Below are positions 3,553 through 27,336 of a stretch of DNA of 64,000 nt, in pieces. Origin of the DNA: Minwuia sp. (GTDB taxonomy: Bacteria > Pseudomonadota > Alphaproteobacteria > Minwuiales > Minwuiaceae); contig JARGPL010000009.1 in the NCBI GenBank assembly GCA_029210175.1, positions 62,001 through 126,000 of the forward strand, read 5' to 3'. The notes beneath the pieces are model-generated. The model made no database searches, was not told the DNA's origin, and was given only the letters and a program-made list of their open reading frames with translations. The stretch's first letter is position 1; every line of letters begins with the position of its first letter. Both the position numbers and the translations under genes were made by a program.

Positions 3553-4773
3553 GTGTCGGATTGGCAAGGGGCTGGACAGGACGTGTCAGCGACTTTGAAA
3601 CAGGTGCCAGGAGCGAAAGGTGAGGCGGCCGGCAACGCGCGGCGCCCCTTGCCGGCCAGCAGGCCACCGGGGACGAATCGCAGTCACCATGAACCGGCGA
3701 CCTTTCTGCAGCGCGGCACGGTCGTGCCCTTTACCACATCCAGCCTGGCCCAATCGCGCGTCCGCCTGGATGACCGGGGAAGGCAGGAAGTCATCCTGCC
3801 CGGATTTTCAGGGGGCAAGGGCGTCTATATCACCGCATGGTCCAGCCTGCCGGATATCACGTCGCCGTCTGTCCATGACCGGGCACTGATCGAAACCATC
3901 GCGCAGCAGAGGGTGATTTCGCCGCCGGATGTCCGTCGCTGCTGGGCGGAACTTGCGACCACCGGCATCGGGGGACAGGCCCTGGCCGAGAAAGCGCGGG
4001 AAGAGCTGGCGCACGCTGCCGAAGTTCGGGTCGCGACCAGGATCATGCTTCTGCTCGACTGCATCCGCCGTTCCGGTGGTAAGGTCGGGCCGGAACTGAT
4101 GGCCCGATTGGGTCACCCCGATGGGGAGCAGCAGGCAAAGGCCCTGCTGGCCGGTACTGCACGGCGCATTGACTGTGATGTGGCAACCATTGACGCCCAT
4201 ATCGGGGAACTGGCGGCACTGCTCGGCACCCTCGGGTTGCGGTCCCTGCCGCAACCGGGTCGTCTGCGTGACCTGCATGTTCGCTTGCAGGAATTCTCCC
4301 ATGCGATCGGCAACTGGTCTCGCACCACCGTATCCGAATCGGCCCCTGTCGGCCATTTCGCGGCCATGTCGTCAGAACATTCCGCCGCTATCGCAGGGCG
4401 TGCAATCGCGCAGGTCGACGCGCTGCTGGCGGATTCATTGAAGCTGATCAGCAACCGGGAAGCCGGAAAGAAATCCCTCCGCACCGAGCTGCTGCGGATT
4501 GCCTGGCTGCTGGACGGCTGGGACTACGTGCTGCGAGTCTGGGCTGACGTGGTTGCCGAGCGCACGGCGGTCGATGTCGCGATTGCCGAGATCGGCCGGA
4601 TCGTTCCCATCGTGCCGGCCAGCGAAGTTCAGGATGCAAGTGCCCACAAGTCTGTCGAACTGTTCCGCCAGTACCGCAGCCGCGTCGGCCATTCCGAGGA
4701 CTGGTTGAGCGGAGATCCGGACGAAGCCGACCCCGCCGGTCCCGGGCCCGGCAACCGGGATACCCGCGCATGA
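3553..4773 (+). CDS. Hypothetical protein, helical, coupled to next gene
   Basis: A 406-residue protein that I do not recognise. The GTG at 3553 gives the full frame; the first ~50 residues are Pro/Arg/Gly-rich and probably disordered, so the true start could be further in. From about residue 55 a more ordered region appears (RGTVVPFTTSSLAQSRVRL, then GGKGVYITAW). After that comes a long Ala/Leu-rich helical part with REELAHAAEVRVATRIMLLL and a Trp-rich segment (RIAWLLDGWDYVLRVWADVV). The tail is acidic and Pro-rich. No signal peptide, membrane segment or nucleotide-binding motif is visible. The stop overlaps the next ATG (ATGA), so the two proteins probably work together. Confidence 0.7.
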   Translation: MSDWQGAGQDVSATLKQVPGAKGEAAGNARRPLPASRPPGTNRSHHEPATFLQRGTVVPFTTSSLAQSRVRLDDRGRQEVILPGFSGGKGVYITAWSSLPDITSPSVHDRALIETIAQQRVISPPDVRRCWAELATTGIGGQALAEKAREELAHAAEVRVATRIMLLLDCIRRSGGKVGPELMARLGHPDGEQQAKALLAGTARRIDCDVATIDAHIGELAALLGTLGLRSLPQPGRLRDLHVRLQEFSHAIGNWSRTTVSESAPVGHFAAMSSEHSAAIAGRAIAQVDALLADSLKLISNREAGKKSLRTELLRIAWLLDGWDYVLRVWADVVAERTAVDVAIAEIGRIVPIVPASEVQDASAHKSVELFRQYRSRVGHSEDWLSGDPDEADPAGPGPGNRDTRA

Positions 4774-6086
4774 AAGGCACAGTCTCGCAGGAAGAACTCA
4801 AGGAGCGCCTGTTCGTTCTGGAGCCACAGCAGTTTCTGGAACTCTACCGGTTGTACGAGAAGCTTGGCAGCACGGTCGATGTGAAGGTGGAGATGCAGAT
4901 CCTGCGTCGGCGCCTGGTGCGGATGCGACCCAGGCGCGCCCTGACGTTCACGCGGCTGCTGTGCGAACCGTTCGAGGCATTTCTGGTCAACGGACAACCT
5001 TCGGACCCCGGGCTGGTGTCTCGGCGCATGTGTCTGCCGGTCGCCCGGCTTGTCCGGCGACATCTTTCTGCGGCCGAGTTGGTGCGCTTCGAGCAGCGGA
5101 TCGCAGCGCTGAAACCCGATGACGGTGCGGCCAAGGTGCTGCTGGGCCGCGACCTCTGGGAGGTGGCGGCGAAGATACTTTCCGACCTGCGTCTTTCCAG
5201 GCCCAGGACGCCAGGTGACCCGCAGCCGCGTATTGGCCTGTTGATCGGCTGCCTGCAGATCGGGGAGGCGATGGTCACGCTGTCGCGCGGTATTCCTGAA
5301 GGGCGGGTTGATGCGCTGGACGAGGGCGGGGCCAAGCTGCTCGTCAGGCTGCTCAGGACCCTGCCGCAGGACCGGACCGGTCACGCCCGGTACCTCATGG
5401 CGCTGCTGGCCCGGCGGCTGGAGAACCCCGCGAGCGTCATGGCAATCCTTCAGTCCGATGCCGGGTCGCTGCCGGCGGCGACACGCCAGGACCTGACCCG
5501 AATGGTGCGCGGCGAGATCGAGGCAGGCGTCGAGGCCGGTGTCGCGAAACTGGCTGCCGGGGGGCATGGTGCGCCGGAGGTTGTGCGCCAGGCGGAACGT
5601 CTGCTCGACCGGCTGGGCCAGATCAGCGCGTCAGGTGCGGTCGGCCCGAAGATGCAGCAGGCCGGTTCACGGATTGCCAGCAGGCTGGGCGGCATGGAAA
5701 GCCTGTCGGACGTGGCTGCGCTTGAGCCGTCACGGCAAGATCAGATCAGGACGCTGTTGTCCGTCGAGCAGAGCGCCGGACTGGCGCACGCGGAGACCTA
5801 TCGCGAACTGGAGAGCGAAATCGGCAACGTCATCCGGCTGGGTGCCCGGATCGACCGTCTGGGTGTGGACAACCCCTTGCGCGCGCGCGAGGTGGCGCTG
5901 CGCAACCAGATCGCGACCCGCCAGGCCGCGCTGCTCTCGTCCTTGCCGCAGGTGCCGGATGAACCCGGTGCCCGGGCGTCGGCCCGCGCCGGTCTCTATG
6001 GCCTGGTACGCATGGTGGAAATGCTGGACGGCTCCAATGCCGCCGAGACGCTGCGCTGCGAGGGCGACCGGATCCTCGCCGGGTAG
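4770..6086 (+). CDS. Hypothetical alpha-helical protein, partner of upstream gene
   Basis: A 438-residue protein of unknown function, translationally coupled to the preceding gene by an ATGA overlap. The N-terminus holds LFVLEPQQFLELYRLYEKLG and then a strongly basic stretch (MQILRRRLVRMRPRRAL), which could contact nucleic acid or membrane. The rest is almost wholly helical and Leu/Ala/Arg-rich, with QAERLLDRLGQISASGAVG and a final segment ARAGLYGLVRMVEMLDGSN. There is no signal peptide and no transmembrane helix. Codon use looks like the surrounding genes. The gene is followed by a small hairpin (GTGCC-GTT-GGCAC at 6086-6098) and a 126-bp gap, so the pair may form its own unit. Confidence 0.7.
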   Translation: MKGTVSQEELKERLFVLEPQQFLELYRLYEKLGSTVDVKVEMQILRRRLVRMRPRRALTFTRLLCEPFEAFLVNGQPSDPGLVSRRMCLPVARLVRRHLSAAELVRFEQRIAALKPDDGAAKVLLGRDLWEVAAKILSDLRLSRPRTPGDPQPRIGLLIGCLQIGEAMVTLSRGIPEGRVDALDEGGAKLLVRLLRTLPQDRTGHARYLMALLARRLENPASVMAILQSDAGSLPAATRQDLTRMVRGEIEAGVEAGVAKLAAGGHGAPEVVRQAERLLDRLGQISASGAVGPKMQQAGSRIASRLGGMESLSDVAALEPSRQDQIRTLLSVEQSAGLAHAETYRELESEIGNVIRLGARIDRLGVDNPLRAREVALRNQIATRQAALLSSLPQVPDEPGARASARAGLYGLVRMVEMLDGSNAAETLRCEGDRILAG

Positions 6087-23877: not shown

Positions 23878-23896
23878 AGGTCAGATATATTGACCT
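23878..23896. promoter_or_regulatory. Palindromic candidate operator AGGTCA-N7-TGACCT
   Basis: Perfect 6-bp arms AGGTCA and TGACCT flank the AT-rich spacer GATATAT in the 295-bp gap between the divergent oxidoreductase and deacetylase-like genes. Its size and symmetry fit a dimeric regulator, for example Lrp/AsnC or GntR type. No regulator gene is adjacent, so the binding protein is unknown. The rest of the gap (to 24098) is AT-richer than the genes and holds no further clear signal. Confidence 0.4.
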
Positions 23897-24098
23897 TTTA
23901 TTGTAATAATCGTTCGTGATTGGCCAGCTGCCGCACCTTGCTCGCCGCGTCGAACCGGGTGATGATCAGGGCCGGGCGTCGCTGACGCCCGCATGGGAAA
24001 TTCAACCCAGATGTGAATTGAAGGTCGGGTTCGACAACTCCTGCCAACTGAGGTGAGAGGTTGATCGAATTTGGTGCGTGGGAAAGGGAGACTTGACC

Positions 24099-25148
24099 GT
24101 GCAGGATGAAATGGTTCGCAATATCTATTCTGCGGCGCATGAATACGGCTCGATCCGTGATAATTGGGCGCGATCACCTTCGTTCATCCAGGACGCGTTT
24201 CCGAAGTTGACCCCGGTCCTGTCGGAACAGTTGCATTCGAACGGCTTTCGCCCGGCCTATCCGGACGGGAAGCAGTTCGCGGTTTGCGTGTCGCATGACG
24301 TTGACTGGATCCATCAACCGTTGTCGCGGTCAGGGTTTTTCAAGGCTGCGGTCCGGGGGGCGCTGAAGGGTGATATCAGGACGGCATCATTTGCAGGAAA
24401 GAACCTGCTTGTCCCGGTGGAAAAGCCGGAGTGGTCCTTGCGGCGGTTGATCGACAGGGAAGCGGAGCAGAACATCCGGGCCACCTATTTCTTCCTGTCT
24501 CTTGCGAAGGGTGATTGGGACTACAACTACGCCATGGATACGGTGGAGCGATACCGGCCTCTGATCGATTTGCATGGCAACGAGATCGGGCTTCATGGCG
24601 GGCATGAAACCACGGTTGACCAGAACCGGCTGACATTGGAGAAGAGTCGGCTGGAGACGGCCCTGGGATACCCAATCCAGGGGCATCGCAGTCACTATCT
24701 GAAGTTCAGGACGCCTCATACTTGGCAGAACCTGAAGGATGCGGGTTTCGCTTATGATACGACATTCGGGTTTGCTGATCTGGCGGGTTACAGGAACGGC
24801 CTCTGCTATCCATTCCGGCCCTTTGATCAGGAAACCGGGGCCTATATTGACCTGATCGAAATACCCTTGATCGTCATGGACGTGACTCTCTGGAAATACA
24901 TGAACCTGGGGTTGGAAGCGTCGCTTGCGCTGGTCCAGCGGATGATCGACGACGTGCAGCGACTGAATGGTGTGTTCACGCTGCTATGGCACAACCACTC
25001 GTTCAACGGACAAGAGGGTGAGATATACACCCGGGTGATCGATTACCTGGTGGAGCGTGATCCGTGGTTCGCGACTTCGGGGCAGGTTGCCGAGCACTGG
25101 CGCAAAGAGAACCTTCCGGCCATGGAAGCACAGCTGCCTATGGAATAG
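24099..25148 (+). CDS. Polysaccharide-deacetylase-like protein
   Basis: A 349-residue protein with a NodB-type deacetylase fold, although no signal peptide is evident. Metal and catalytic motifs are SHDVDW (residues 65-70, in place of TFDDG), ATYFFLSL, HGNEIGLHGGHET, GHRSHYLKFRTP and LLWHNHSF. The start is set by the ribosome site GGGAAAGGGAG ending at 24090, which places the GTG at 24099 eight bases downstream; GTG 24078 and TTG 24093 are also in frame. Its 3' end overlaps the convergent GNAT-like gene by 11 bp. It sits next to an ACP/LnmK-like/GNAT operon, suggesting a shared product such as a modified sugar or lipid. That link is inferred. Confidence 0.82.
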   Translation: MQDEMVRNIYSAAHEYGSIRDNWARSPSFIQDAFPKLTPVLSEQLHSNGFRPAYPDGKQFAVCVSHDVDWIHQPLSRSGFFKAAVRGALKGDIRTASFAGKNLLVPVEKPEWSLRRLIDREAEQNIRATYFFLSLAKGDWDYNYAMDTVERYRPLIDLHGNEIGLHGGHETTVDQNRLTLEKSRLETALGYPIQGHRSHYLKFRTPHTWQNLKDAGFAYDTTFGFADLAGYRNGLCYPFRPFDQETGAYIDLIEIPLIVMDVTLWKYMNLGLEASLALVQRMIDDVQRLNGVFTLLWHNHSFNGQEGEIYTRVIDYLVERDPWFATSGQVAEHWRKENLPAMEAQLPME

Positions 25149-26163
25149 CCCGGTAGAGGCCCATGTGCGCATGGGAGCATTGCCATTCGCCCCCTAGACC
25201 TTTCCCGGTTGCATCATGAAGAAAGCAGACCTGTTCGGATTGGCCGGTGTGTGTGAATCCCAGGTCGTCCAGTGACATGCCCAGGTCATCCGGCAGATCC
25301 ATGACCAGTCCGATGCCGCTTCCCTTTGCGGTTTCCTGCAGAGCCACTGCCGCGATTGCCGCCCATTCACCCAAGGCCGGTCGGTCGGATGTGTGCAGCA
25401 GCATCAAGGGTTTGGAGCGTCGCGGCTGTTCGAACACGAACAGGCAGGGCAGGGCGCCGGGACGGTCGATCAGCAGTTTCATGAATGATTCTTCGGGAAA
25501 CCGGTAGTTGATCAGGGCTTCCGACGAACTGAACAGGGCATTGTCGTATCCGCATGCAACGGGTTCTGCCAATCGCGCAACGCGGCGGACGTTGGGCAGC
25601 TGCGAACCAGCCTTCGCGCGCAAAGCCTTTGCCAGTCCGGTCATCCGGTGCTTCCGGAACAGCAGCCGATCTATCCTGCGGGCGTACCGGTTCTGTGGCT
25701 GGGTTGGTCCGATCCATCGGTTGAAGGTGTACTGAACCGGCAAGTCACCCGCCCGTCGCAAAGGGCGCGAACCCTGGGGCGACACTGTCTGAACGACATG
25801 GTAACCATGGGGCGCGGCTTCACGCCTCAAAGCAGCAAAAATTGCCCAGGGCAGGCGGTCACCGCCAACGGTCAGCTTCAGGAACTCCGGCCGAACCGAC
25901 CAGAATTCGGCCTTGCCCGCCTTGGCGGTCTGCCCATCCACGCGCATTTCGATGTCGATCAGGCTGATGAACCCAACCAGCCGATCATCGACCTTTGCTG
26001 AAACGAAGAGGCCATTGCCGAGTGGATTTTCACGGAAGAAATGGTTCGCCCATCTGTCAGCCCGCGCATTGTCAGCCTCACCGGTCAACTCACCGTAAAG
26101 GCGCAGGCCGTCGAAGACATCATCATTCAGTTCGGTCGAAACTGACAGTATCGCTTCATCCAT
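25138..26163 (-). CDS. GNAT-like N-acyltransferase-type protein
   Basis: A 341-residue protein. The N-terminal part resembles a GNAT domain: GLFVSAKVDDRLVGFISLID, a beta-strand pair, then AEFWSVRPEFLK and a helix. The C-terminal half (from about residue 200) may be a second degenerate GNAT unit, with FVFEQPRRSKPLMLLHTSD and AVALQETAKGSGIGLVMDLP. The ATG at 26163 overlaps the stop of the upstream LnmK-like gene by 8 bp, so it is translationally coupled in an ACP-LnmK-GNAT operon. An acyl group might be taken from the ACP or from CoA. I cannot assign donor or acceptor. The gene's end overlaps the convergent deacetylase-like gene. Confidence 0.75.
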   Translation of the reverse strand: MDEAILSVSTELNDDVFDGLRLYGELTGEADNARADRWANHFFRENPLGNGLFVSAKVDDRLVGFISLIDIEMRVDGQTAKAGKAEFWSVRPEFLKLTVGGDRLPWAIFAALRREAAPHGYHVVQTVSPQGSRPLRRAGDLPVQYTFNRWIGPTQPQNRYARRIDRLLFRKHRMTGLAKALRAKAGSQLPNVRRVARLAEPVACGYDNALFSSSEALINYRFPEESFMKLLIDRPGALPCLFVFEQPRRSKPLMLLHTSDRPALGEWAAIAAVALQETAKGSGIGLVMDLPDDLGMSLDDLGFTHTGQSEQVCFLHDATGKGLGGEWQCSHAHMGLYRAIP

Positions 26164-27028
26164 CGTCACGGGCCTTGCCGTCCCCGAGAGCCTTGATCGT
26201 GCAGATTCTTGCAAGTAGCCGGTCCGTGCCCGCTTCCATCATCGACGTATCAAGACGGGCGAATTCCTGCTCCGCGCCGAGAAATTCTGCGCCGACGACC
26301 TTCATCTCGATGTGTTTTCCCAGGTCCAGATTGCCGAAATAGAAAATATCCCGTTGCACCGTACCCGAATGCAGGGACCAGTCCGTATCCAGGCGCAGTT
26401 TCACCGCCTTGCGTTCCATATGGTCGCTGATGGCCGGATAGGACGCGAAATAGAGCAGGCCCGCACCATTGTAGTCGGTGTAGGGATTGGGCTCATAGAC
26501 ACCGGGATCGATTGTCGGGATAGGTTTGCCGGTTGCGCAACCCGGAACGGTTATCTCATTTGCCTTGCCCGCCCGCACTTTCTGAAAGTCCCGAACAAGC
26601 TCTGGTGGTTGCCCCATGTCATCAATGGGATGCACGGGTACGGGTCGCATGGATGCGCGGACCAGATCATTGGACCCTTCGCGCTCCCGGGCGACGAACT
26701 TGGTGAGCATTTCCATGTTGATGACGGGCTCGCCGTCGATGTGGCCTGTATGGCGACTGCGCAGGATGGACATTCCGAAATGATCCATCACGACAGAGAA
26801 GTCGATCTCGGTATTCTCCTGAATTTCTGACAGGGGCACGGCATAACGCCCTCTGATTGCCACGAAGCTTGAATAGATCCGGGCGCCGCTGTCGCTGATG
26901 AAGTCCTGTGATCGCGCACCGAAAATGCGACTGAGTTCGCTCCAGTGAGAATCCCCACAATGCTTGAACAGCCAATTCTCTGACAAGCCCTTCACCGCCA
27001 TCTGCGGCATGCCGACATGAACCCGCAT
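26156..27028 (-). CDS. LnmK/Pnap_2097-like hot-dog-fold biosynthesis protein
   Basis: A 290-residue protein resembling the Pnap_2097 family, itself related to LnmK, a bifunctional acyltransferase/decarboxylase that loads a short acyl group onto an ACP. Supporting motifs are the opening MRVHVGMPQMAVKGLSENWL, FASYPAISDHMER, and RDIFYFGNLDLGKHIEMKV. In known members the gene lies beside an acyl carrier protein, and here the ACP gene is directly upstream: its TGA and this ATG share a base (TGATG). Two hot-dog halves are likely. The family name rests on memory, not on a search. It probably acts on an ACP-bound acyl thioester in the cytoplasm. Confidence 0.7.
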   Translation of the reverse strand: MRVHVGMPQMAVKGLSENWLFKHCGDSHWSELSRIFGARSQDFISDSGARIYSSFVAIRGRYAVPLSEIQENTEIDFSVVMDHFGMSILRSRHTGHIDGEPVINMEMLTKFVAREREGSNDLVRASMRPVPVHPIDDMGQPPELVRDFQKVRAGKANEITVPGCATGKPIPTIDPGVYEPNPYTDYNGAGLLYFASYPAISDHMERKAVKLRLDTDWSLHSGTVQRDIFYFGNLDLGKHIEMKVVGAEFLGAEQEFARLDTSMMEAGTDRLLARICTIKALGDGKARDDG

Positions 27029-27243
27029 CAGATTTGTTCTATCAGATTGCGGAAAGTCGGTGCGTTCTCCCATACATGTGAGTCGATCTCCCTTCCCAGC
27101 GCTTCCTCCAGAGCCGTGCGAAGGATCACCAGATCCAGTGAATCGACACCCGTATCCTCGACTTGCTCGTCCAGCATTTCGCCGAATGCTCCTGCTTCAG
27201 GCAAAGCACTGGCGGCGATAGAAATGAAGTCATTCTCGGTCAT
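27028..27243 (-). CDS. Small acyl carrier protein
   Basis: A 71-residue phosphopantetheine carrier protein. The attachment serine is Ser35 in DTGVDSLDLVILRT, matching the DSL motif. The protein is acidic and helical, as expected for an ACP. It is shorter and more divergent than the housekeeping AcpP and is not near fatty-acid synthesis genes. It is the first gene of a coupled ACP-LnmK-GNAT operon, so it is most likely a dedicated carrier for that pathway. No phosphopantetheinyl transferase is in the window; the cellular enzyme would have to activate it. Confidence 0.85.
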   Translation of the reverse strand: MTENDFISIAASALPEAGAFGEMLDEQVEDTGVDSLDLVILRTALEEALGREIDSHVWENAPTFRNLIEQI

Positions 27244-27336
27244 GGTCGTTTGATCCGTTCGGCGCGGGCAGGGAATGTTTCACTTGCCAGCATCAGGCCA
27301 GCGCGGCGTGCGAACATCAAGAACTTCCCGAGATCC

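Follow-up and report, generated by a model that had tools for sequence, protein, structure and literature searches.

The question raised by a 64,000-nucleotide stretch of the genome of Minwuia sp. (GenBank assembly GCA_029210175.1, contig JARGPL010000009.1, positions 62,001 to 126,000 of the forward strand; hereafter the window) is what a single acyl carrier protein (ACP) gene does beside genes for an LnmK-like, a GNAT-like and a NodB-like protein. All of the parts belong to known families. Judging from sequence comparison, and with a confidence slightly better than even, we propose that the four genes form a cassette in which the LnmK-like protein would make an acyl-ACP from malonyl- or methylmalonyl-CoA, and the GNAT-like protein would transfer the acyl group to the amine that the deacetylase exposes on a sugar.

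The protein encoded at 26156-27028 on the minus strand is predicted to be an LnmK-type double hot-dog acyltransferase/decarboxylase. It scored 181.3 bits over residues 2-277 against TIGR04098 (cut-off 100) and 162.4 bits against TIGR04099, the Pnap_2097 model (cut-off 125), so that the resemblance to LnmK and Pnap_2097 noticed in a first-pass annotation, made from the letters alone, is borne out by both profiles. The structure prediction advised there gave an AlphaFold model, built from 36 homologues, with a predicted local distance difference test score (pLDDT) of 90.4, and a Foldseek comparison with the PDB placed all seven LnmK structures at ranks 1-7 with template modelling (TM) scores of 0.75-0.81. 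Acyl-ACP thioesterases came next in the ranking, at a TM of about 0.6. Residue Y52 aligns with Tyr62 of LnmK, which we take to be the proposed catalytic residue of that enzyme, and the loop asparagine N187 (within DYNGAGLLYFASY) was invariant in 83 of 83 aligned proteins. Malonyl-ACP decarboxylation by MadB requires the loop residue Asn45, and for LnmK the use of an asparagine on a loop similar to that of MadB has been reported (PMC8666670). Since profile, fold ranking, and the tyrosine and asparagine residues all agree, we regard the predicted LnmK family and fold as a firm assignment. No Pfam match to PF09500, the family of the Mad decarboxylases, was found. Numerous sub-threshold matches to TIGR04098, consisting of frames of about 150 amino acids that matched in the C-terminal half, were not counted as LnmK relatives, with E. 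coli rings serving as the control; we infer that they are Mad/YiiD-type hot dogs.

The ACP gene (27028-27243, minus strand) encodes 71 amino acids with the phosphopantetheine site TGVDSLDL, which contains the DSL serine seen earlier, and matches PF00550 at 30.3 bits (cut-off 20.8). In the set of loci fetched, the sequences closest to it are ACP parts of ACP-LnmK units. A TGATG is common to the ACP stop and the LnmK-like start, and the ATG of the GNAT-like gene (25138-26163, minus strand) lies at 26163, giving an 8-nucleotide overlap with the LnmK-like stop; the ACP, LnmK-like and GNAT-like genes are translationally coupled. The NodB/VimE-like gene, for a putative sugar N-deacetylase, lies on the plus strand (24099-25148) and is convergent with the GNAT-like gene, the two 3' ends overlapping by 11 nucleotides. 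The four open reading frames, both couplings and the facing deacetylase-like gene are as the first-pass annotation had them, and its remark on the low G+C of the region also held: at 57.4%, where the window averages 63.3%, the four-gene region ranks in the bottom 2 of 304 sliding windows. The G+C at third codon positions (GC3) is 0.57-0.70 in the four genes and 0.83-0.86 in the flanking genes.

The four genes are a horizontally acquired insertion, since four congeners show an empty site with the same flanks. In those genomes gor is followed directly by an indolepyruvate-oxidoreductase-like gene with only 133-230 bp between them, against about 3.5 kb in the window, and the two flanking genes are 90-93% identical between the window and the four congeners. 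The insert, of about 3.4 kb, spans 23915-27336; its left end is approximate and its right end falls just past the gor stop. The genes flanking the four are gor, an aldehyde dehydrogenase gene, a major facilitator superfamily gene and the indolepyruvate-oxidoreductase-like gene. No LnmK homologue was present in six congeners examined, and no repeat, tRNA or transposase was found at the insert ends. The left side is marked by a palindrome, AGGTCA-N7-TGACCT, 5' of the indolepyruvate-oxidoreductase-like gene; this sequence (AGGTCAGATATATTGACCT, window 23878-23896) is largely kept in the four congeners and is likely a regulator site. A search for a sigma-70-like promoter in the insert found none, and an Rfam search of the window gave no match.

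A scan of the genome collection yielded 80 loci with LnmK relatives, which were sorted into three contexts, A, B and C. Group A consists of nitrilase (Nit1C) clusters with MSMEG_0568-type radical SAM and MSMEG_0569-type flavoprotein genes; it forms one clade (support 100/100) and is annotated as Nit1C clusters on plasmids. An ACP within 700 nucleotides of the LnmK gene was found in 0 of 32 group A loci. In group B, 35 of 36 loci have an ACP directly before the LnmK gene or fused to it (34 by profile and one, L078, by reading); seeds for the ACP profile came partly from group B loci, and a dozen non-seed loci match as well. The layout in the window is the same as that of group B. The carrier-protein neighbour earlier ascribed to Pnap_2097 proteins is therefore a feature of group B and not of classical Pnap_2097 in the Nit1C clusters. 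Group C comprises polyketide synthases of Streptomyces and Bacteroidota that begin with an N-terminal LnmK-ACP-ketosynthase arrangement (for example L113:9917-13216, L094:9986-13285 and L127:9941-13240), which is apparently the loading module of the synthase. Such a loading module was considered for the insert and rejected. Membership in a Nit1C cluster was also rejected: the window protein scores above the Pnap_2097 cut-off, but the nitrilase, radical SAM (MSMEG_0568), flavoprotein (MSMEG_0569) and aminoimidazole ribonucleotide (AIR) synthase-like neighbours of those clusters are all absent from its flanks.

What the ACP-LnmK unit of group B might serve is suggested by its neighbours. Glycosyltransferase genes lie near many group B loci, which are often surface-glycan loci, and 30 of the 36 have an acyl-consuming enzyme within about 5 kb. 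These partners are hexapeptide acyltransferases (17), MBOAT proteins (5, one locus having both), GNATs (4) and thioester-reductase-like proteins (5), counts that are not all independent because eight Weeksellaceae/Flavobacteriaceae loci are closely related. The GNATs of the window, L078 and L099 were read from sequence and that of L071 came from Pfam. Hexapeptide, MBOAT and reductase genes were found in none of the 32 group A and 13 group C loci. Hexapeptide, ACP and LnmK parts also occur as a single polypeptide. In one such fusion, in a Sphingomonadales metagenome-assembled genome (MAG; L068/L133, about 4402-5163), there is an in-frame stop within the LnmK part. On plasmid pRLO149_63 of Roseobacter litoralis a hexapeptide-LnmK fusion (WP_148264532.1) lies amid glycosyltransferase, sulfotransferase and nucleotide-sugar genes. 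This protein, whose function is undescribed, joins an LnmK domain to a sugar-type acyltransferase; it differs from the window in having a hexapeptide domain instead of a GNAT and in lacking a recognizable ACP.

Two other proteobacterial lineages have all four gene types together. In L099, a Sphingomonadales MAG, the GNAT, NodB, ACP and LnmK genes form a co-directional run, with a deacetylase above the PF01522 cut-off, and in a Magnetococcales MAG (L078, the same as L067) an ACP-LnmK pair faces GNAT-like and deacetylase-like genes. The deacetylase-like protein of the latter has VDD and HGLTH motifs and matched no profile. The first-pass annotation had asked whether the four genes travel together: the ACP-LnmK pair does, and the whole set does in these two MAGs; the partner enzyme is not fixed, being hexapeptide, MBOAT, GNAT or thioester reductase.

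The NodB-like protein matched the NCBIfam VimE model (NF053580; 3.7e-31, 108.2 bits) and had no Pfam match, PF01522 (CE4/NodB) included. Its HDVD motif, with the first histidine, and its GLH-type motif are conserved in seven aligned relatives, a PDB sequence search with its alignment returned weak deacetylase matches only, and its gene is the only VimE-like gene in the genome. For the putative GNAT-like acyltransferase one clear homologue was detected in 378 genomes (G481/L175, pairwise 2e-6); no relative was found in the plasmid records searched, and a PDB sequence search with its alignment gave no match. In L175 the gene for this homologue is coupled to that for a relative of the window NodB-like protein, with an asparagine-synthase-like gene adjoining. 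The row of VimE-like deacetylase, GNAT and asparagine-synthase-like genes (L175:10977-15548, from the Magnetococcales-type genus g372) has the same arrangement as VimE-VimA-WbpS, in which the deacetylase VimE is thought to free an amine to which the GNAT VimA then adds an amino acid (PMC7468200). Two Saprospiraceae loci (L098:13339-13977 and L135) have genes for PIG-L-type deacetylases in the vicinity of ACP-LnmK, and this is possibly a second deacetylase fold in the same role.

In the mechanism that we propose, the LnmK-like enzyme would take a dicarboxylic acyl-CoA, most likely methylmalonyl-CoA and alternatively malonyl-CoA, shift the acyl group to the phosphopantetheine of the neighbouring ACP, and decarboxylate it to give propionyl-ACP (or acetyl-ACP). 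The NodB/VimE-like protein would strip the N-acetyl group from a sugar or nucleotide-sugar made by the host, the GNAT-like protein would transfer the acyl group from the ACP to the freed amine, and the re-acylated sugar would enter the host's own surface glycan. This agrees in outline with the first-pass suggestion of an acyl unit built on the ACP and moved to an acceptor exposed by the deacetylase, for which VimE/VimA provides a precedent (PMC7468200); the acyl group and the acceptor named here are our conjectures. The absence of a ligase, which had been counted as a gap, is not one, because enzymes of the LnmK type need no ATP to charge the ACP from acyl-CoA. A non-acetyl group is the better guess for what the ACP carries, because acetyl-CoA would supply plain acetyl and a dedicated ACP would then have little purpose. 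The host genome has a methylmalonyl-CoA mutase and, elsewhere, an exopolysaccharide initiating transferase. In three Nit1C clusters, of Marinomonas, Oceanobacter and Methylotenera, a methylmalonyl-CoA mutase gene lies directly 3' of Pnap_2097/LnmK (L089:10891-13017, L143:10938-13043 and L136:10723-12909), a hint that the family as a whole acts on methylmalonyl-CoA.

Several observations weigh against this proposal. The GNAT-like protein is the weakest of the four assignments: it falls below the PF00583 cut-off (E value 0.017; 15.8 bits, cut-off 20.7), and its structure model, from a three-sequence alignment, had a pLDDT of 31 and was discarded. The NodB-like protein fails the equivalog cut-off of the VimE model (440), and its relatives vary at the position of the second metal-binding histidine of classical NodB. 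Compared pairwise, the GNAT-like proteins of the window, L099 and L078 are not significantly similar, and therefore the sets recur by gene type and not by orthology. The window LnmK-like protein sits on a long branch whose position the tree does not fix, and the present evidence does not tell methylmalonyl from malonyl. Finally, there is no glycan gene beside the insert, so that the acceptor must be made elsewhere in the genome.

These points leave room for other explanations, which differ in the step of the proposal that they give up. If the deacetylation step is given up, an acyl-ACP would serve for O- or N-acylation of a sugar and the NodB-like protein would act separately, for example in trimming a finished polymer. 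Most group B partners are hexapeptide or MBOAT proteins, which are commonly O-acyltransferases, and many group B loci lack a recognized deacetylase. We nevertheless think this unlikely: GNATs act mostly on amines, and the coupling seen in L175 between the NodB relative and the GNAT homologue is also found in L099 for its NodB and GNAT genes. If instead only decarboxylation is given up, malonyl- or methylmalonyl-ACP would be made and the GNAT would attach an intact dicarboxylic half-amide to the sugar. Such an acidic substituent would be a meaningful change of the surface, acyl transfer and decarboxylation are separable steps, and the enzyme is known here only from its sequence and fold; the loop asparagine that is needed in MadB and reported for LnmK (PMC8666670) is, however, invariant in all 83 proteins, and this makes loading without decarboxylation quite improbable in our view.

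Two further explanations take the LnmK-like protein out of glycan acylation altogether. The ACP and LnmK-like protein might make the starter of a polyketide or peptide that is built elsewhere, with the GNAT and NodB genes as unrelated neighbours. Polyketide synthases are what both LnmK itself and the group C proteins work for, and on a Thalassospira plasmid an LnmK relative adjoins genes of the nonribosomal peptide synthetase type. The overlap of the ACP, LnmK and GNAT genes, the co-occurrence of the four gene types in two other lineages and the lack of a ketosynthase gene in the insert render this very doubtful. Acyl-ACP thioesterases have the double hot-dog fold too and come next in the fold ranking, which suggests that the LnmK-like protein could be one of them, or a hot-dog enzyme of another kind, and do no more than hydrolyse acyl-ACP. 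Yet their lower TM scores relative to the LnmK structures, together with the LnmK profile and residue matches, led us to reject a plain acyl-ACP thioesterase, and we hold this explanation to be highly implausible.

Returning to the proposed deacetylate-and-reacylate cassette, it resembles several known systems in part. The window protein shares with LnmK of the leinamycin pathway (PDB 4HZN-4HZP and 6X7L-6X7P) its profile, its fold, equivalents of Tyr62 and the loop asparagine, and an ACP of its own adjoining. It differs in having only about 19% identity to LnmK, no polyketide synthase, and GNAT-like and NodB/VimE-like partners. The Wbp/Vim pathway of Porphyromonas and Tannerella has in common with the window a NodB-type deacetylase beside a GNAT-like gene and the proposed logic of deacetylation and replacement, but what it attaches is an amino acid, it lacks an ACP-LnmK unit, and Wbp genes are missing alongside the insert. 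The Mad system (MadA, a GNAT plus a hot dog; MadB) shares the hot-dog fold, the asparagine loop, an ACP-bound substrate and the association with a GNAT, and its acetyl-ACP is used by GlmU on an amino sugar. In Mad a single hot dog acts on the malonyl-ACP of fatty acid synthesis, whereas the LnmK-family protein of the window is a double hot dog and has an ACP dedicated to it.

A broader reading, to which we give somewhat less than even credence, is that ACP-LnmK units are a widespread and undescribed module that would supply interchangeable glycan acyltransferases (hexapeptide, MBOAT or GNAT) with an acyl-ACP other than acetyl-ACP, such as propionyl-ACP, the window adding a VimE/VimA-like pair to make a portable N-acyl-swap cassette for a host amino sugar. 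We found no description in the open-licence literature searched of ACP-LnmK as an acyl supply for glycan acyltransferases, or of its joining to a VimE/VimA-like pair. The description of LnmK concerns one polyketide family, and Pnap_2097 has the status of a hypothetical family from nitrilase clusters; the module, if real, would give these proteins a function across Pseudomonadota, Bacteroidota and one Acidobacteriota locus. What has been found for acetyl-ACP and GlmU would then reach further, to dedicated ACPs that carry different acyl groups, and it would be explained how a 3.4-kb insert could alter the cell surface in a single step.

Two other neighbourhoods of LnmK relatives are worth recording. 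On a Thalassospira marina plasmid (L188:6938-10965) a Pnap_2097 gene adjoins genes for a protein with AMP-binding, peptidyl carrier and condensation parts, a fatty acyl-AMP ligase and a P450, and these genes are a small biosynthetic cluster. In Chitinophagales and Ignavibacteriales MAGs (L102 and L109) three small conserved genes lie 5' of an ACP-LnmK fusion, and two of them are DUF488-like by eye.

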